DNA from: Acidobacteriota bacterium
Lineage (GTDB): Bacteria; Acidobacteriota; Terriglobia; Acidiferrales; UBA7541
NCBI GenBank assembly: GCA_003225315.1
Contig: QHZD01000039.1
Span: 1 to 64,000, forward strand
Direction of reading: 5' to 3'
Length of the DNA stretch: 64,000 nt
Shown here: in pieces, positions 49,329 through 55,653 of the stretch
How the letters are laid out: every line of letters begins with the position of its first letter
How positions within the stretch are numbered: position 1 is the stretch's first letter
Translations under genes and position numbers: made by a program
The notes under the pieces: model-generated
Seen by the model: the letters and a program-made list of their open reading frames with translations, nothing else
What the model was told of the DNA's origin: nothing
The model's database searches: none

Positions 49329-49445
49329 CTGCGCAGATAGGCGTCTGCCATAATCCAAGAACCTGTTCGCCTAAAGAATCATGGGGAATACGTGACGGAG
49401 AACGACACAAAAGGAAAGTTGACGGCGCCCAGTAAGGGCACGCAC

Positions 49446-52298
49446 ATGAAAATGACCGGCAACGAAATCCGCGAAACCTTCCTGCGCTTCTTTGAGTCCA
49501 AGGGCCACCGTCGCGTGCGCAGCTCGTCGCTCGTTCCTCATGGCGATCCCACATTGCTCTTCACCAACGCGGGGATGAACCAGTTCAAGGACGTTTTCCT
49601 CGGCCTCGAAAAACGCGACTACAACAAAGCCACCTCCGCCCAGAAATGCGTGCGCGCGGGCGGCAAGCACAACGACCTGGAAAATGTCGGCTTCACCAAG
49701 CGCCATCACACCTTCTTCGAGATGCTCGGCAATTTTTCATTCGGCGACTATTTCAAAGAGGACGCGATTAAGTACGCGTGGGAGCTGCTCACTTCGCCCG
49801 AATGGTTCGCCATCCCAAAGGAAAAACTTTACGTAACCGTATTTAAGGCGTCAAATCCGCCAGATACCAATTTTTCGTGGGCTGTTCCCGATGATGACGC
49901 TTCCAAGAAGCATTGGTTAGATCAAGGAGTTCCGTCTAACCGAATTGGCGAGCTTGGATTCCGGGACAATTTCTGGCAGATGGGCGATACCGGCCCCTGC
50001 GGTCCGTGTAGCGAAGTTCACTACGACATGGGCCCCGCCGCATCCGACGAGGGCCATACGGATTGCAAATTCCCCTGCGACTGCGGCCGCTACGTTGAAA
50101 TCTGGAATCTTGTCTTCATGCAATATAACCGAGAACCAAGCGGTCTTTCTGAGCTACCCAAACGGTCTGTGGATACCGGCGTGGGCCTTGAACGTGTTGC
50201 GGCCGTCCTCGAAGGCGTCATCTCCAATTACGATACCGATCTATTTCTTCCACTGATGAAGCGGGCTGCGGAACTCTGCGGCGTGGATTATGAAAAAGAA
50301 ATTAGCTCCGAAGTCGGCAAAGGTGGCGCTGCTTCGCTTCGGGTCATCGCCGATCACGCTCGTGCGACGACGTTTCTGATTACCGACGGCGTTTTACCGT
50401 CTAACGAAGGGCGCGGCTATGTTCTGCGCAAGATCATGCGCCGTGCGATTTACCATGGACGCCTGCTGGGCGCGACACAGCCGTTTCTCTCCGAAATGGT
50501 GAATGCTGTTCGCAACATCATGGGTGCGGCCTATCCGGAGTTGATCGAACCTGGCGCTTCAGGCGTGGTAGACATCGTATTGGGCGAAGAGGTCCGATTT
50601 GGACGCACATTAGCGTTGGGTCTGAAGAAACTACAAGATGACTTGATTCCGCTCGACCAATACAGAACTCGATTTGAGCAATTGGAAATTCAGAAGCTGC
50701 GTGCGTCGCCGATACCGCACTACGACGCCGAATATGCAAAAGCCCGTTTGTTGATGACTTATTCTGGCGCGAAAGCATTTAGGCTTCAGGATACTTACGG
50801 GCTGCCGAAGGACCTTATTCGTGACGTAGTTCGAGACGCGGGATTGTCATTCGACGAAGCAGGTTTTGAAGCAGCGATGGAAGAGCAACGCAAGCGAGCG
50901 CGAGCGTCGTGGAAGGGTGGGGCGAAGGAAGCGGCAAATCTGGCGTATGCGAAGATTGCGGACCGCTTCACCACGGAACTGGACTTCTATCATGGGACGA
51001 CGGCGAGAGATTGTGAGATAGAAGCAATCATTTTGACTGGCAGCGCTCACCGCGCTGACACAAAGAACGGTCCGGTGAATGAACTGAAAGCCGGCGAGAG
51101 CGGAGAAGTTGTTCTCGACCGCACGGCGATTTATGCGGAGTCTGGCGGGCAGGTGGCGGACACCGGCGCGTTTTACGACAATTCGGAATCGCAATTGCTC
51201 GCCGAAGTGAAGGGCGCGTTTTATCCCGTCGCCGGACTCGTGGCGCACAAAGTTGTAGCGAAGGAAACGCTGCGCGTGGGCGATCGCGTTGCGGTGGTCG
51301 CGGACGCGGAGCGGCGCGCGCGCATCATTCGCAATCACACCGGAACGCATCTTGTGAATGCGGCGCTGCGCAATATTCTCGGCACGCACGTGAAGCAGTC
51401 CGGCTCGCTGAACGCGCCAGACCGGCTGCGCTTTGACTTCTCGCACTTCGCGCACGTGGACGCGGAAGAGCTGCGGGACATCGAGCAGCAAGTGAACGAC
51501 GAGATTCGCCTGAACACCGAGATCGAGACGAATGTCACGTCGCTCGAAGAGGCGCTGGCTTCCGGCGCGCTCGCGTTTTTCGGCGACAAGTATCCGGAGC
51601 ACAACGTTCGCGTGGTGACCATCCCCGATCCCCGTGCCGCCCGCGGCTTCTACTCCAAGGAGCTTTGCGGCGGGACGCACGTGCAGCGCGTCGGCGACAT
51701 TGGCGTGCTCAAAATTGTCAGCGAAGAATCCGTGGCCGCCGGCGTTCGCCGCATCGAAGCCGTGACCGGCATCGGCGCGCTGGAGCATTTTCAAAAGCAG
51801 GCGGACACTCTGCGTCAGCTAGCCGGCCAGCTCAACGTAGGCGAAGACGGCATCCTGGCCCAGGTGGAGAAGCTCTCCCAGACCGCCAAGCAGCTCGAAA
51901 AGGAGCTGGAAACGCAGAAGCGCAAAGGCGCGCTCAGCCAGATCGACGAGCTAGCGGGGCGCGTGCAAGTTGTTAAAGGGATTAAGCTTATTGCCGCCGA
52001 AGTGCAAAACGTTGACCGCGAAGGACTTAGGCAGCTGGTGGACAGCCTGCGCCAGAAGCTGGGTTCCGGAGTGGTCGCCCTAGGCATGCCGGAAAATGGA
52101 AAAGTGGCCCTGATCGCCGGAGTCACCAAAGATCTGACCGCTAAAGTCCATGCTGGCAAGCTGATACAGGCACTGGCCAAGCAGCTAGGCGGTTCAGGGG
52201 GCGGGAGGCCTGACCTTGCGGAGGCTGGCGCAAAAGACACAGCTGGCCTAAAAAGTGCCCTATTGAGCATCCCCTCCCTGCTAGAGCCTTTGTTATAA
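49446..52298 (+). CDS. alaS: Alanyl-tRNA synthetase
   Basis: 950 residues from the ATG at 49446. The class II catalytic domain ('FTNAGMNQFKDVFLG', 'KHNDLENVGFTKRHHTFFEM'), the helical tRNA domain, the editing domain with zinc ligands in 'NHTGTHLVNAAL' and 'ELCGGTHVQRVGD', and the C-terminal oligomerising region (after about 800) are all present. It charges tRNA-Ala and clears mischarged Ser and Gly. It is longer than the usual 870-880 residues, mainly from an insert of about 30 residues before 'AFRLQDTYGLPKDL' and extra N-terminal residues. Confidence 0.96.
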   Translation: MKMTGNEIRETFLRFFESKGHRRVRSSSLVPHGDPTLLFTNAGMNQFKDVFLGLEKRDYNKATSAQKCVRAGGKHNDLENVGFTKRHHTFFEMLGNFSFGDYFKEDAIKYAWELLTSPEWFAIPKEKLYVTVFKASNPPDTNFSWAVPDDDASKKHWLDQGVPSNRIGELGFRDNFWQMGDTGPCGPCSEVHYDMGPAASDEGHTDCKFPCDCGRYVEIWNLVFMQYNREPSGLSELPKRSVDTGVGLERVAAVLEGVISNYDTDLFLPLMKRAAELCGVDYEKEISSEVGKGGAASLRVIADHARATTFLITDGVLPSNEGRGYVLRKIMRRAIYHGRLLGATQPFLSEMVNAVRNIMGAAYPELIEPGASGVVDIVLGEEVRFGRTLALGLKKLQDDLIPLDQYRTRFEQLEIQKLRASPIPHYDAEYAKARLLMTYSGAKAFRLQDTYGLPKDLIRDVVRDAGLSFDEAGFEAAMEEQRKRARASWKGGAKEAANLAYAKIADRFTTELDFYHGTTARDCEIEAIILTGSAHRADTKNGPVNELKAGESGEVVLDRTAIYAESGGQVADTGAFYDNSESQLLAEVKGAFYPVAGLVAHKVVAKETLRVGDRVAVVADAERRARIIRNHTGTHLVNAALRNILGTHVKQSGSLNAPDRLRFDFSHFAHVDAEELRDIEQQVNDEIRLNTEIETNVTSLEEALASGALAFFGDKYPEHNVRVVTIPDPRAARGFYSKELCGGTHVQRVGDIGVLKIVSEESVAAGVRRIEAVTGIGALEHFQKQADTLRQLAGQLNVGEDGILAQVEKLSQTAKQLEKELETQKRKGALSQIDELAGRVQVVKGIKLIAAEVQNVDREGLRQLVDSLRQKLGSGVVALGMPENGKVALIAGVTKDLTAKVHAGKLIQALAKQLGGSGGGRPDLAEAGAKDTAGLKSALLSIPSLLEPLL

Positions 52299-52545
52299 TG
52301 GGGTTGCGCCAGAACCGTGTCCTACGGGAGACAGTGTCCGTTCCCGTGTGTGCGGAGTACCAAGATGAGCCACCGCCGGGCGACCTCCCTTCGGGTAGAC
52401 CGTTCGTGCGGGGGCCTAGTACGGAAGGAACATTGACGGTAGAACGTCAATGTTGAAAACTGTCTGCTGTGTAGTGGGTTCCAAGATTGTTGTAGCCTTC
52501 CCCAAGGCAGAACCCCGGCAAAACCGGGGTAACAGTCGACCGGGC
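52294..52545 (+). ncRNA. Candidate structured noncoding RNA after alaS
   Basis: An extended -10 promoter (TGTTATAAT, 52291-52299) overlaps the alaS stop. The next 250 bases lack an open frame of merit but are rich in stems: AACATTGACG/CGTCAATGTT (52429-52454), GCCTT/AAGGC (52495-52508), ACCCCGG/CCGGGGT (52512-52530), plus a longer imperfect arm in which GCCACCGC near 52369 can pair with GCGGGGGC near 52408. A 6S-like RNA or a long regulatory leader for the next gene are both possible; neither is proven. Confidence 0.45.
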
Positions 52546-52552
52546 TAATGGA

Positions 52553-52732
52553 ATGACGAGACGCACGGCAATCACGGCAGGGCTAATTAGGACCACGCTG
52601 GCTTTTTGCGCGATTTTCTTCGCATCGTTTTTCGCGAAAGGTGCGAACGCGCAGATCGCCAAGGTCCTGAATGATGACGGCCGGCAATTTTTCGTGAACG
52701 CCGAACCGCCATCGCCGAAGCTCTCTGCCGCG
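52553..52732 (+). pseudogene. Signal-peptide part of a frameshifted lytic transglycosylase
   Basis: The frame from 52553 encodes a signal peptide (TTLAFCAIFFASFFAKGANA) and a short mature start ending 'DGRQFFVNAEPPSPKLSA'. It then runs into unrelated sequence. The catalytic domain continues in another frame as 'RIYLPSETSFTG'. Dropping one base near 52727-52732 joins the two into a continuous exported protein. It is either a genuine disabling frameshift or a sequencing error. Confidence 0.7.
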
Positions 52733-52739
52733 AATCTAC

Positions 52740-53264
52740 TTGCCCTCCGAAACTTCTTTTACGGGACGCAGCCGTCTGGCCCTGGACATGGGCCGCGACG
52801 GCGTCGAAAAAATCGTACGAGAAGCGGCGGACCGCCATCGCGTGGATCCTGCACTGGTCCGCGCGGTGATCGAAACGGAGTCGAACTGGAATCCCAAGGC
52901 GTGGTCGCACAAGGGCGCCGGCGGATTGATGCAGTTGATTCCCACGACGGCACAACGATATGGAGCCTATGACGTGTTCGACCCGCAACAAAATATCGAC
53001 GCCGGGGTTAAACATTTGAAGTGGTTGCTAGAACGATACAATGGCAACCTTGACCTGGCCCTGGCGGCGTACAATGCGGGTGAGGGTGCTGTGGACAAGG
53101 TTCACGGCGTCCCCGCGTACCGAGAGACGCGGAACTATGTGCAGAAAGTACAGAACGCCTACTTCCGGCCGGGCTCGGGACGTCTTGCTGGCGCTTACGT
53201 CGGTTCCCACGCGATCCACAAAGACGTCACGCCAGAAGGCCGCATCGTATTCACCAACGAATAG
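52740..53264 (+). CDS. Lytic transglycosylase (SLT domain), catalytic part
   Basis: 174 residues counted from a TTG at 52740; the true gene probably begins at 52553 and is shifted by one base. The SLT fold is complete: 'DPALVRAVIETESNWNPKAW' with the catalytic glutamate in ETESN, 'KGAGGLMQLIPTTAQRYG', 'NIDAGVKHLKWLLERYNG' and 'ALAAYNAGEGAVDKV'. It cuts peptidoglycan glycan strands. Without the leader the enzyme would stay in the cytoplasm. A cell-wall amidase gene follows. Confidence 0.85.
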   Translation: MPSETSFTGRSRLALDMGRDGVEKIVREAADRHRVDPALVRAVIETESNWNPKAWSHKGAGGLMQLIPTTAQRYGAYDVFDPQQNIDAGVKHLKWLLERYNGNLDLALAAYNAGEGAVDKVHGVPAYRETRNYVQKVQNAYFRPGSGRLAGAYVGSHAIHKDVTPEGRIVFTNE

Positions 53265-53421
53265 AAAGAGCTGCTCGTGGTTGGCAGCTGGCTATTTTTC
53301 CGGGAGCCGGAATTTGGGTCTCGGAAGTTTGATTTTTTCGGCGTTTGTTTTTTCTGAGGTTTGATTTTTTTCTGAAGTGCGTGGCGGTTTCTCGGCTACA
53401 AGGTTTGGGGGATGCGGGCTG

Positions 53422-55653
53422 ATGTTTTTGGCGGAAAACAATTCGCGGATCAGGTTCGCCCGTCTTTCGCCGATTTTTGCCGCGTTAAGCGCCGCGCTGT
53501 TTTTTGTTTCTGCGGCACAGGCGAAAACGAATGCGGAAGCCGCCGCCACCGCGTCGCTGAAGCGCCAGTCGGCGACAGCGCAATTTGCGCGAGCCGAAGA
53601 GCAGCGCGCGGCGCTGAACAGCAAACCCCCCGAAAAACGCACGCTTGCGGATTACAAACAAGCGGTTTTGGTTTATCGCCGCGTAGCCATGATTACGCCG
53701 CGGGCTCCGGAAGTTCCCGATTCCCTGCTGGCCGTTGCGGAACTTTACACCGAAATGGGCGACCGTTTTGGACGCGCTTACTATCAGTCGGCCGTGGACA
53801 CTTACCAATTCCTGATTCGCGAATATCCGACGAGCAAGTATTGCCAGGATGCGATTCTGCGAACGGCGAAGTTGCAGCGCGAGCATTTGGGGGATTCGGG
53901 GCTGGCGAAGAAAACTTATGAAGATTTCCTGAAACGCTATCCGCGTTCCCCGAGAAAACGCGAAGCGCAAGAAGCGCTGGCGGAATTGGCTCTGCTGCGG
54001 AACGGCGACGTACCGCCCGACGCGAACAGTGCGGCTTCGAATGCAAAGACGGCATGGTCAAGTATTGAGGAACCGCGCGCGGAGGCGCCAGCACACTCCG
54101 GCGGCAAGTCCGCAAGCAGCAAAGGATCACGCGGGATCCCGCAGGTGCAGCGGATTCGCGCGGCTGTCAACGGCGATGCCACGCGGGTGACTATCGATCT
54201 CGATGACAGCGTGCAATACACTTCCGGGCGCATCGCGAGTCCTGAGCGCATCTTTTTTGATTTGCATTCGGCCCGGCTGACGCCGGAAGCGGCGCGCGCG
54301 AATATCCACGTGGACGGCGGCCTGCTGCTGGCGGTGCGCGTGGCGCAAAATCACAACGGCGTGGTGCGCGTGGTGCTGGACGTAGACAGAGTTAAGAATT
54401 ATGCCGCTTCGCTGTCCGGCAATCCGCCGCAGCTTTTGATTGATTTATTTGGGGACTCTTCGGCAGCTGTGCCGGTACGAACTGCAATAGGGAAGCCCGC
54501 GCAGGAAGCTGGCGCGGAAGACGCGAACAAGAGCGCGGCGGCCGGCGGCGGAATGCAAACCGCTCAGAATGGTTCGGGAAAGGAACCGCCGGCGGAAACT
54601 ACTTCTCCTTTGCAAAAGATAGTGGCGAATGCGAAGAGCGCCATAAATACGACGATCAACGGCGGCGCGGTTAACGCTGGCGCGACTAACGGAGGTTCAG
54701 TTGGCGGAAGTAACGGCTCAAGCGCGGGGGATAGTTCTTCCGCGGTGGCGCGCAATGCGCCTCTGGCCGCGAAAAACTCCAAGTCGACACCATTGAAAAC
54801 AGCGGCTGCAGGCGCGAAGCCGGACTTGGTCCGGCCAGCAAGCACGCCACAGCCAACGCGCGACGGCCAGTCCACGCTGACCCGCACGCTGGGCTTGAAG
54901 ATTGGAAGAATTGTGATCGATGCTGGCCACGGCGGCCACGATACGGGAACGATTGGCCCAACGGGCTTGATGGAAAAAGACCTGTGCCTGGACGTGGCGC
55001 TGCGGCTGGGGAAAATTATCGAGCAGCGGCTGCCGGGCGCGGACGTGGTGTACACGCGTTCGGATGACACGTTTGTTCCGCTGGAAGAGCGGACAAACAT
55101 GGCGAACCAGGCCAAAGCGGACCTGTTTATTTCCATTCATGCGAATTCGAGCCGGGACCATGGGGCGCGCGGCATAGAGACGTATTACTTGAACCTGAAA
55201 GGCTCGGCGGAAGCGATGGAAGTGGCGGCGCGCGAGAACGCCACGGCACAAGGAGGCGTGCACGACCTCCAGGACCTGGTGCTGAAAATCACGAGGACGG
55301 AAAAGATTGACGAGTCCAGGGAACTTGCCGAGGATATCCAGGATTCCCTTTCGAGGCGGATTCAAAAGACCAACAACCCGGTGAAGAACCGCGGGGTGCG
55401 CAAAGCTCCTTTCGTAGTGCTGATTGGCGCGGCCATGCCGTCGATCCTGACGGAGATATCTTTCCTGAGCAATCCGGCGGACGAACAATTGCTAAAGAAG
55501 CCCGAACAGCGGCAAAAAGTGGCGGAAGGGCTTTACCAGGGCATGGCCAGCTACCTGGAAAGTATGAACAGCGTGACCATGAATCTGCCCGCTAAACCAG
55601 GGGCCGTGCGTCCAGCCGCGGCAGCTGTTGAACAATCTCGCAACCAAAACTAG
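53422..55653 (+). CDS. amiC: N-acetylmuramoyl-L-alanine amidase with TPR and AMIN domains
   Basis: 743 residues from the ATG at 53422. A signal peptide (ending near AAQAKT) leads to TPR-like helices ('AYYQSAVDTYQFLIREYP', 'KTYEDFLKRYP'), an AMIN domain (about 235-340), a low-complexity Ala/Gly/Ser linker, and an amidase_3 domain from about 490 with 'VIDAGHGGHDTGT', 'DLFISIHANSS' and the catalytic glutamate in 'ILTEISFLSN'. It cleaves the peptide from muramic acid during cell separation. The TPR fusion is unusual for the E. coli AmiC type, so the symbol is approximate. Confidence 0.87.
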   Translation: MFLAENNSRIRFARLSPIFAALSAALFFVSAAQAKTNAEAAATASLKRQSATAQFARAEEQRAALNSKPPEKRTLADYKQAVLVYRRVAMITPRAPEVPDSLLAVAELYTEMGDRFGRAYYQSAVDTYQFLIREYPTSKYCQDAILRTAKLQREHLGDSGLAKKTYEDFLKRYPRSPRKREAQEALAELALLRNGDVPPDANSAASNAKTAWSSIEEPRAEAPAHSGGKSASSKGSRGIPQVQRIRAAVNGDATRVTIDLDDSVQYTSGRIASPERIFFDLHSARLTPEAARANIHVDGGLLLAVRVAQNHNGVVRVVLDVDRVKNYAASLSGNPPQLLIDLFGDSSAAVPVRTAIGKPAQEAGAEDANKSAAAGGGMQTAQNGSGKEPPAETTSPLQKIVANAKSAINTTINGGAVNAGATNGGSVGGSNGSSAGDSSSAVARNAPLAAKNSKSTPLKTAAAGAKPDLVRPASTPQPTRDGQSTLTRTLGLKIGRIVIDAGHGGHDTGTIGPTGLMEKDLCLDVALRLGKIIEQRLPGADVVYTRSDDTFVPLEERTNMANQAKADLFISIHANSSRDHGARGIETYYLNLKGSAEAMEVAARENATAQGGVHDLQDLVLKITRTEKIDESRELAEDIQDSLSRRIQKTNNPVKNRGVRKAPFVVLIGAAMPSILTEISFLSNPADEQLLKKPEQRQKVAEGLYQGMASYLESMNSVTMNLPAKPGAVRPAAAAVEQSRNQN

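Follow-up and report, generated by a model that had tools for sequence, protein, structure and literature searches.

The alaS-slt locus and its embedded promoter

The window examined here is a stretch of 64,000 nucleotides from a genome of the group 2 Acidobacteria (order Candidatus Acidiferrales, class Terriglobia) that is assembled in 57 contigs, and its subject is the non-coding stretch of approximately 250 bases between the genes alaS and slt. The upstream neighbour alaS (49392-52298, + strand; Pfam tRNA-synt_2c, E 7.2e-180) carries a promoter inside its end. The lytic-transglycosylase gene slt (52553-53264, + strand) has a probable ATG at 52553 and is read in two frames (52553-52972 and 52740-53264), the second part of which matches Pfam SLT (E 2.8e-32). 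Relative to the homologous loci L014 and L017, some 14 nt are missing near 52715-52725 (some 17 relative to L012), and the resulting split is either an assembly slip or the mark of a decaying gene (pseudogene). In another homologue, L015, there is no start in the frame of the best SLT match. The gene after slt (53377-55653) encodes an AMIN plus Amidase_3 protein, and alaS thus precedes two genes for cell-wall hydrolases.

An extended -10 promoter element, TGTTATAAT (52291-52299, + strand), can be read directly from the DNA and overlaps the alaS stop codon TAA (52296-52298). Both this overlap and the absence of a gene from the 250 bases that follow had been pointed out in an earlier, sequence-only reading of the region, and both are borne out, the list of open reading frames containing none of at least 60 amino acids that begins on the + strand after 52299 and before 52553, the probable slt start. 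Homologous loci were collected by a search with alaS, which gave matches in 32 of 36 genomes of the window's genus and in 84 of 95 genomes of the order. Downstream DNA was used for 83 of these 84, G069 being dropped as its alaS match stops short of the gene's end, and 12 loci from the class with alaS identity of at least 45% served as outgroups. Loci from the class with lower similarity (such as L059-L062 and L064) were left out of the outgroup count; TATAAT at the alaS stop was found in 0 of these 5. Of the 83 order genomes, 76 have a TAT(AA/AG/GA)T hexamer (TAT + stop + T) at the alaS stop, against 2 of the 12 outgroups. A T directly follows the stop in 77 of the 83, and the TG of the extended -10 is found in 68 of the 76 promoter-bearing genomes. 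In addition, slt lies downstream of alaS in all 32 genus loci, within 700 nt of it in 42 of 46 family loci, and after it in four of five further loci of the order, the contig of the fifth ending early. Gene order in these genomes shows that the leader keeps its place ahead of one kind of gene, slt.

Boxes and hairpins conserved across the order

The predicted fold energy of the leader is -100.7 kcal/mol, against -92.07 (sd 5.08) for shuffled sequences (z -1.70), a value equalled by 13 of 200 shuffles, and the reverse strand of the leader gives z -1.55. The overall fold of the window's leader beats chance only mildly. Single-sequence stability proves little, so the case for structure rests on comparison, and the leader exemplifies a structured RNA that stands barely above chance when one sequence is folded and is revealed when many are compared. 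Both anchors were located, with permissive patterns, in 76 of the 83 leaders, of which 67 remained after removal of near-duplicates. Identity in the leader was 0.62-0.72, against 0.52-0.67 at fourfold sites of alaS in eight relatives, with the leader more alike in 7/7 comparisons; these relatives were picked for having leaders that can be aligned, a choice that favours such an outcome. The most conserved part of the leader is the 5' box (0.77-1.00).

The 5' box, GCGCCAGAACCG (52306-52317, + strand) and of the type GCGCCAGAA, is found in its strict form in 60 of the 83 order genomes, 0 of the 12 outgroups and approximately 3% of shuffles. Measured with permissive patterns, it begins 6-9 nt past the -10 in 69 of 76 order genomes. 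Seven loci of the order have a displaced alaS stop, and in these a -10-like hexamer could be identified by eye 6-8 nt from the box, suggesting that the box is tied to the promoter and not to alaS. This locked spacing points to a box at the start of the transcript, and transcription is likely to begin at or beside it, at about 52306. A subgroup of the window's genus (L018, L021-L024 and L026) has a divergent 5' box of the GGGAGTTGTGTCC type, together with a repeated GGGGTTAAATCC-like motif ahead of the 3' box. In the L013 leader, a larger insertion of GC-rich hairpins separates the -10 from the 5' box, with a distance of 33 nt between them.

Hairpin P2 (52315-52355, + strand), found by local folding, consists of an outer helix (CCGTGT at 52315-52320 with GTGCGG at 52350-52355) and an inner helix (ACGGGA at 52324-52329 with TCCCGT at 52342-52347). 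In an unbiased scan for covariation, in which 12-nt segments were swapped among the 67 non-redundant leaders, P2 ranked first among 502 segment pairs (z -7.27); z was below -3 for 12 pairs and above +3 for one. With one sequence per genus it still reached z -3.53 (p 0.0006). Changes on both sides were seen in five of nine pairs in model alignment A7, where the covariation score was reached by 0 of 500 shuffles, this alignment leaning toward the P2 structure by construction, and in three of 12 pairs in the window's own group. These data argue that P2 covaries across the order as a conserved RNA structure with compensatory changes. They also bear on the proposal that a transcription regulator binds the boxes as DNA, with the hairpins being incidental: a 5' box locked to the -10 would suit such a site, whereas compensatory pairing in P2 needs RNA and the 3' box lies at a variable distance from the promoter, so that this proposal is very unlikely.

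The 3' box, GCCTTCCCC, forms the 5' arm plus the loop of a small C-loop hairpin, P4 (52495-52508, + strand; RNA GCCUU-CCCC-AAGGC), the 3' arm of which is Shine-Dalgarno (SD)-like. The box is present in 71 of the 83 order genomes, 1 of the 12 outgroups and approximately 4% of shuffles; both boxes occur together in 54 of the 83 against 0 of the 12. Among sequences with the box, P4 folds in 28 of 31 from the genus and 30 of 44 others, and several outgroup genera retain a 3' box without P4. A P4 stem of at least five pairs forms in 36 of the 67 leaders; shuffles give an expected 6.2 (maximum 14). Swapping of its arms gave z -3.30 over all sequences and p 0.075 when each genus was represented once, and its covariation appears weaker than that of P2. 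An SD-like word follows the box in 22 of the 31 genus members and in only 18 of the 44 others, and masking of an SD therefore cannot be the function of P4 everywhere. In the window, P4 lies 45 nt ahead of the slt ATG, the two being separated by a 39-nt insertion (52509-52547, + strand) with a perfect CCCCGG/CCGGGG hairpin of its own (52512-52530); the nearest relatives in the alignment have their ATG within about 20 nt after the box. Longer gaps between P4 and the ATG are also found in some other members, with L040, L098 and L121 carrying different sequences there.

The occurrence of the element away from alaS was examined with an exact -10/5' box pattern and with a covariance model. The exact pattern matched once in the window's own genome, at the window's leader (control, 1), and in three of 395 other genomes of the phylum, against eight reversed-control matches; these three, outside the order, had no alaS or slt nearby. 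The model, R2, comprises the 5' box and P2, was built from 11 family sequences and misses the window's own leader above noise. Its best ten among the matches listed in the order are all alaS-slt loci of a single genus (g31), and the 11 weaker matches inspected beside the alaS-slt leader L150 had neither alaS nor slt and look like chance. The element may be used more widely in genomes, with R2 too narrow even for the window's own copy.

The middle domain and long-range pairings

The domain between P2 and P4 (52369-52494) can be aligned solely among the window's close relatives, where eight sequences were compared. Its first hairpin, M1 (52369-52415, + strand), was predicted in the window fold and aligns in these relatives; its two helices have 84.4% and 83.3% of their cells paired, and two of 11 pairs are changed on both sides. 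A conserved unpaired stretch follows, TAGTACGGAAGG (52417-52428, + strand), whose TAGTAC and GAAG columns do not vary among the eight. The second hairpin, M2 (52429-52454, + strand), pairs AACATTGACG (52429-52438) with CGTCAATGTT (52445-52454) over 10 perfect base pairs; 88.8% of its cells are paired and four of 10 pairs are changed on both sides. M2 is the perfect 10-base hairpin to which the sequence-only reading had drawn attention. It is real, a perfect Watson-Crick stem of at least 10 pairs arising once when 52300-52552 was shuffled 400 times with dinucleotides preserved, but it is confined to a domain of close relatives, and wide conservation belongs to the 5' box, P2 and the 3' box instead. 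For P2, M1, M2 and P4 taken together, 11 of 38 pairs were changed on both sides in the close group, above all but 1 of 500 shuffles. The compensatory changes in homologues that the earlier reading had proposed looking for are accordingly found at both levels, across the order in P2 and among close relatives in this set. The close-group evidence is moderate, since RNAalifold gave a covariation term of +1.27 and the structure was derived from, and then scored on, one alignment of eight sequences.

Two long-range pairings were considered and set aside. The first, a closing helix (P1) between the 5' box and bases ahead of the 3' box, gave native pairings that beat swapped ones in only 31 of 72 cases. 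P1 reached a z of about -3.2 in the segment-swap scan; closer tests gave p 0.0008 with certain choices of segment inside the window's genus, p of at least 0.085 outside the genus and p of at least 0.10 with one sequence per genus, and 0 of 6 pairs in the alignment of close relatives were changed on both sides. Any hint of P1 is thus confined to the window's genus. The second, a pseudoknot (P3) between an upstream GGAAG and the CUUCC of the 3' box, beat 95% of shuffles in five of 67 leaders, and swapping of the box had no effect (z 0.94); P3 is rejected. As neither P1 nor P3 has consistent support, a global fold is not claimed, and among the long-range pairings tried no supported multistem junction or pseudoknot was found.

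These observations bear on several readings of the region. It could be a passive 5' untranslated region, in which P2 is an ordinary hairpin for stability of the 5' end and the 3' box an enhancer of translation, with no sensing or switch. The position of P2, some 15-20 nt from the predicted 5' end, would fit, as would a P2 sequence that varies freely while its pairing is kept, a middle whose length changes freely and long-range helices that lack consistent support. Across genera, however, both the 5' box and the loop rich in C are kept as sequence, beyond what a stability hairpin needs, and a passive region is a possible but tentative explanation. A ligand-binding riboswitch of a new class, sensing a cell-wall or signalling molecule, is rather unlikely. 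It would account for two covarying hairpins and conserved unpaired sequence ahead of one class of gene, and P4 lying across SD-like bases resembles a translational expression platform; a lytic-transglycosylase leader of Streptococcus has, moreover, independently been listed as a weak riboswitch candidate (PMC11109978). The lack of a supported junction or pseudoknot among the pairings tried speaks against it, and with one gene in one order the gene context names no ligand. A free small RNA of some 200 bases, from which slt would be reached only through read-through, is more improbable still. The strong promoter of its own and the structured middle domain in the window's group would speak for such an RNA, but simple scans of the + strand found no terminator-like site in the leader, the terminator scan gave no mark of a 3' end ahead of slt, and the length varies widely (43 to 241 nt from 5' box to 3' box across the order) while the 3' box remains ahead of slt. 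A simple scan of the same strand also found no sigma-70 two-hexamer site inside the leader.

A probable leader for slt and its relation to known systems

Sequence comparison brings out the promoter, the two boxes, P2, P4 and the place before slt, while regulation, with its direction and its trigger, is what we infer. The region most likely makes up the 5' untranslated leader of the slt gene, with transcription from a promoter in the alaS stop and translational control through P4 (a probability of roughly 0.55). Transcription would start from the extended -10 embedded in the alaS stop codon, and the RNA, beginning at or next to the 5' box, would fold P2 near its 5' end and present P4 at its end ahead of slt. 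Members of the window's genus usually have SD-like bases (AAGG/GAGG) in the 3' arm of P4, which makes control of translation the most likely mechanism: a closed P4 would reduce access of the ribosome, and an open P4 would expose its site. The 5' box and P2 may receive a signal or may shield the 5' end. In other genera, where the start codon lies further on, details of the mechanism must presumably differ. A more elaborate version is doubtful. It would be an order-specific riboswitch of a new class or a protein-sensing leader, made up of a recognition box at the 5' terminus, P2 and a C-loop hairpin covering the ribosome site, and would couple slt synthesis to a cell-wall or stress signal.

Lytic transglycosylases need to be held in check, and to our knowledge little is known of their regulation in uncultured soil Acidobacteria. 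The slt leader probably tunes the amount of enzyme made. It is a defined and testable element, shared across an order and served by a promoter that is integrated in the preceding gene's stop codon, and if it senses something it would represent a new class of regulatory RNA.

Probably the alaS-slt leader constitutes a new family, matching no known RNA family and shared across one order. At gathering thresholds, Rfam 15 gave nothing in the window, 6S included, and nothing in 20 related loci. A search of 52000-52800 that admitted E values up to 10 gave three weak sub-threshold matches near the region, none of them 6S, and ARAGORN found 0 tRNA or tmRNA genes in the window. The sequence-only reading had suggested a structured RNA or long leader, possibly 6S-like. 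The first part stands, given the constraint, the compensatory changes and the fixed place before slt; the 6S part does not. The leader is of a size class similar to 6S RNA (RF00013) and has GC-rich stems, but it has no RF00013 match and no supported or covarying closing helix, its box-to-box length is highly variable, and it is tied to a single gene. The best 6S match of the genome lies elsewhere, a full-length RF00013 match on contig C46 (L156, C46:23800-24300, positions 158-381, + strand) at 37.9 bits against a cut-off of 46.4. A search for 6S at a permissive threshold also matched in the archaeon Haloferax volcanii, and the sub-threshold match on C46 is therefore likely, not proven, to be the 6S gene of this genome. 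That the leader itself is 6S or another known Rfam RNA is extremely improbable.

The c-di-AMP (ydaO/yuaA) riboswitch precedes cell-wall hydrolase genes, and the slt leader resembles it as an RNA leader that would control wall-lytic enzymes; it differs in lacking an Rfam match. A search of mainly open-access literature found no publication describing an alaS-slt leader. Acido-1 (RF01686) and Acido-Lenti-1 (RF01687) are, like the leader, acidobacterial RNA candidates, described as probably not cis-regulatory (PMC2864571); they are Rfam entries according to that source, and Rfam 15 has no match in the window at gathering. The YjbJ motif (WRC-39-1) of Streptococcus is a weak riboswitch candidate before a predicted lytic transglycosylase, and shares with the leader two hairpins, a downstream gene of this kind, restriction to a single lineage and no assigned ligand (PMC11109978). 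In that account its second hairpin is terminator-like and the motif has a place about 30 nt ahead of the SD, whereas that of the slt leader has a C-rich loop, has no U run and often holds SD-like bases. The motif comes from another phylum. On this basis, the YjbJ motif would be the nearest described system, and an independent leader.
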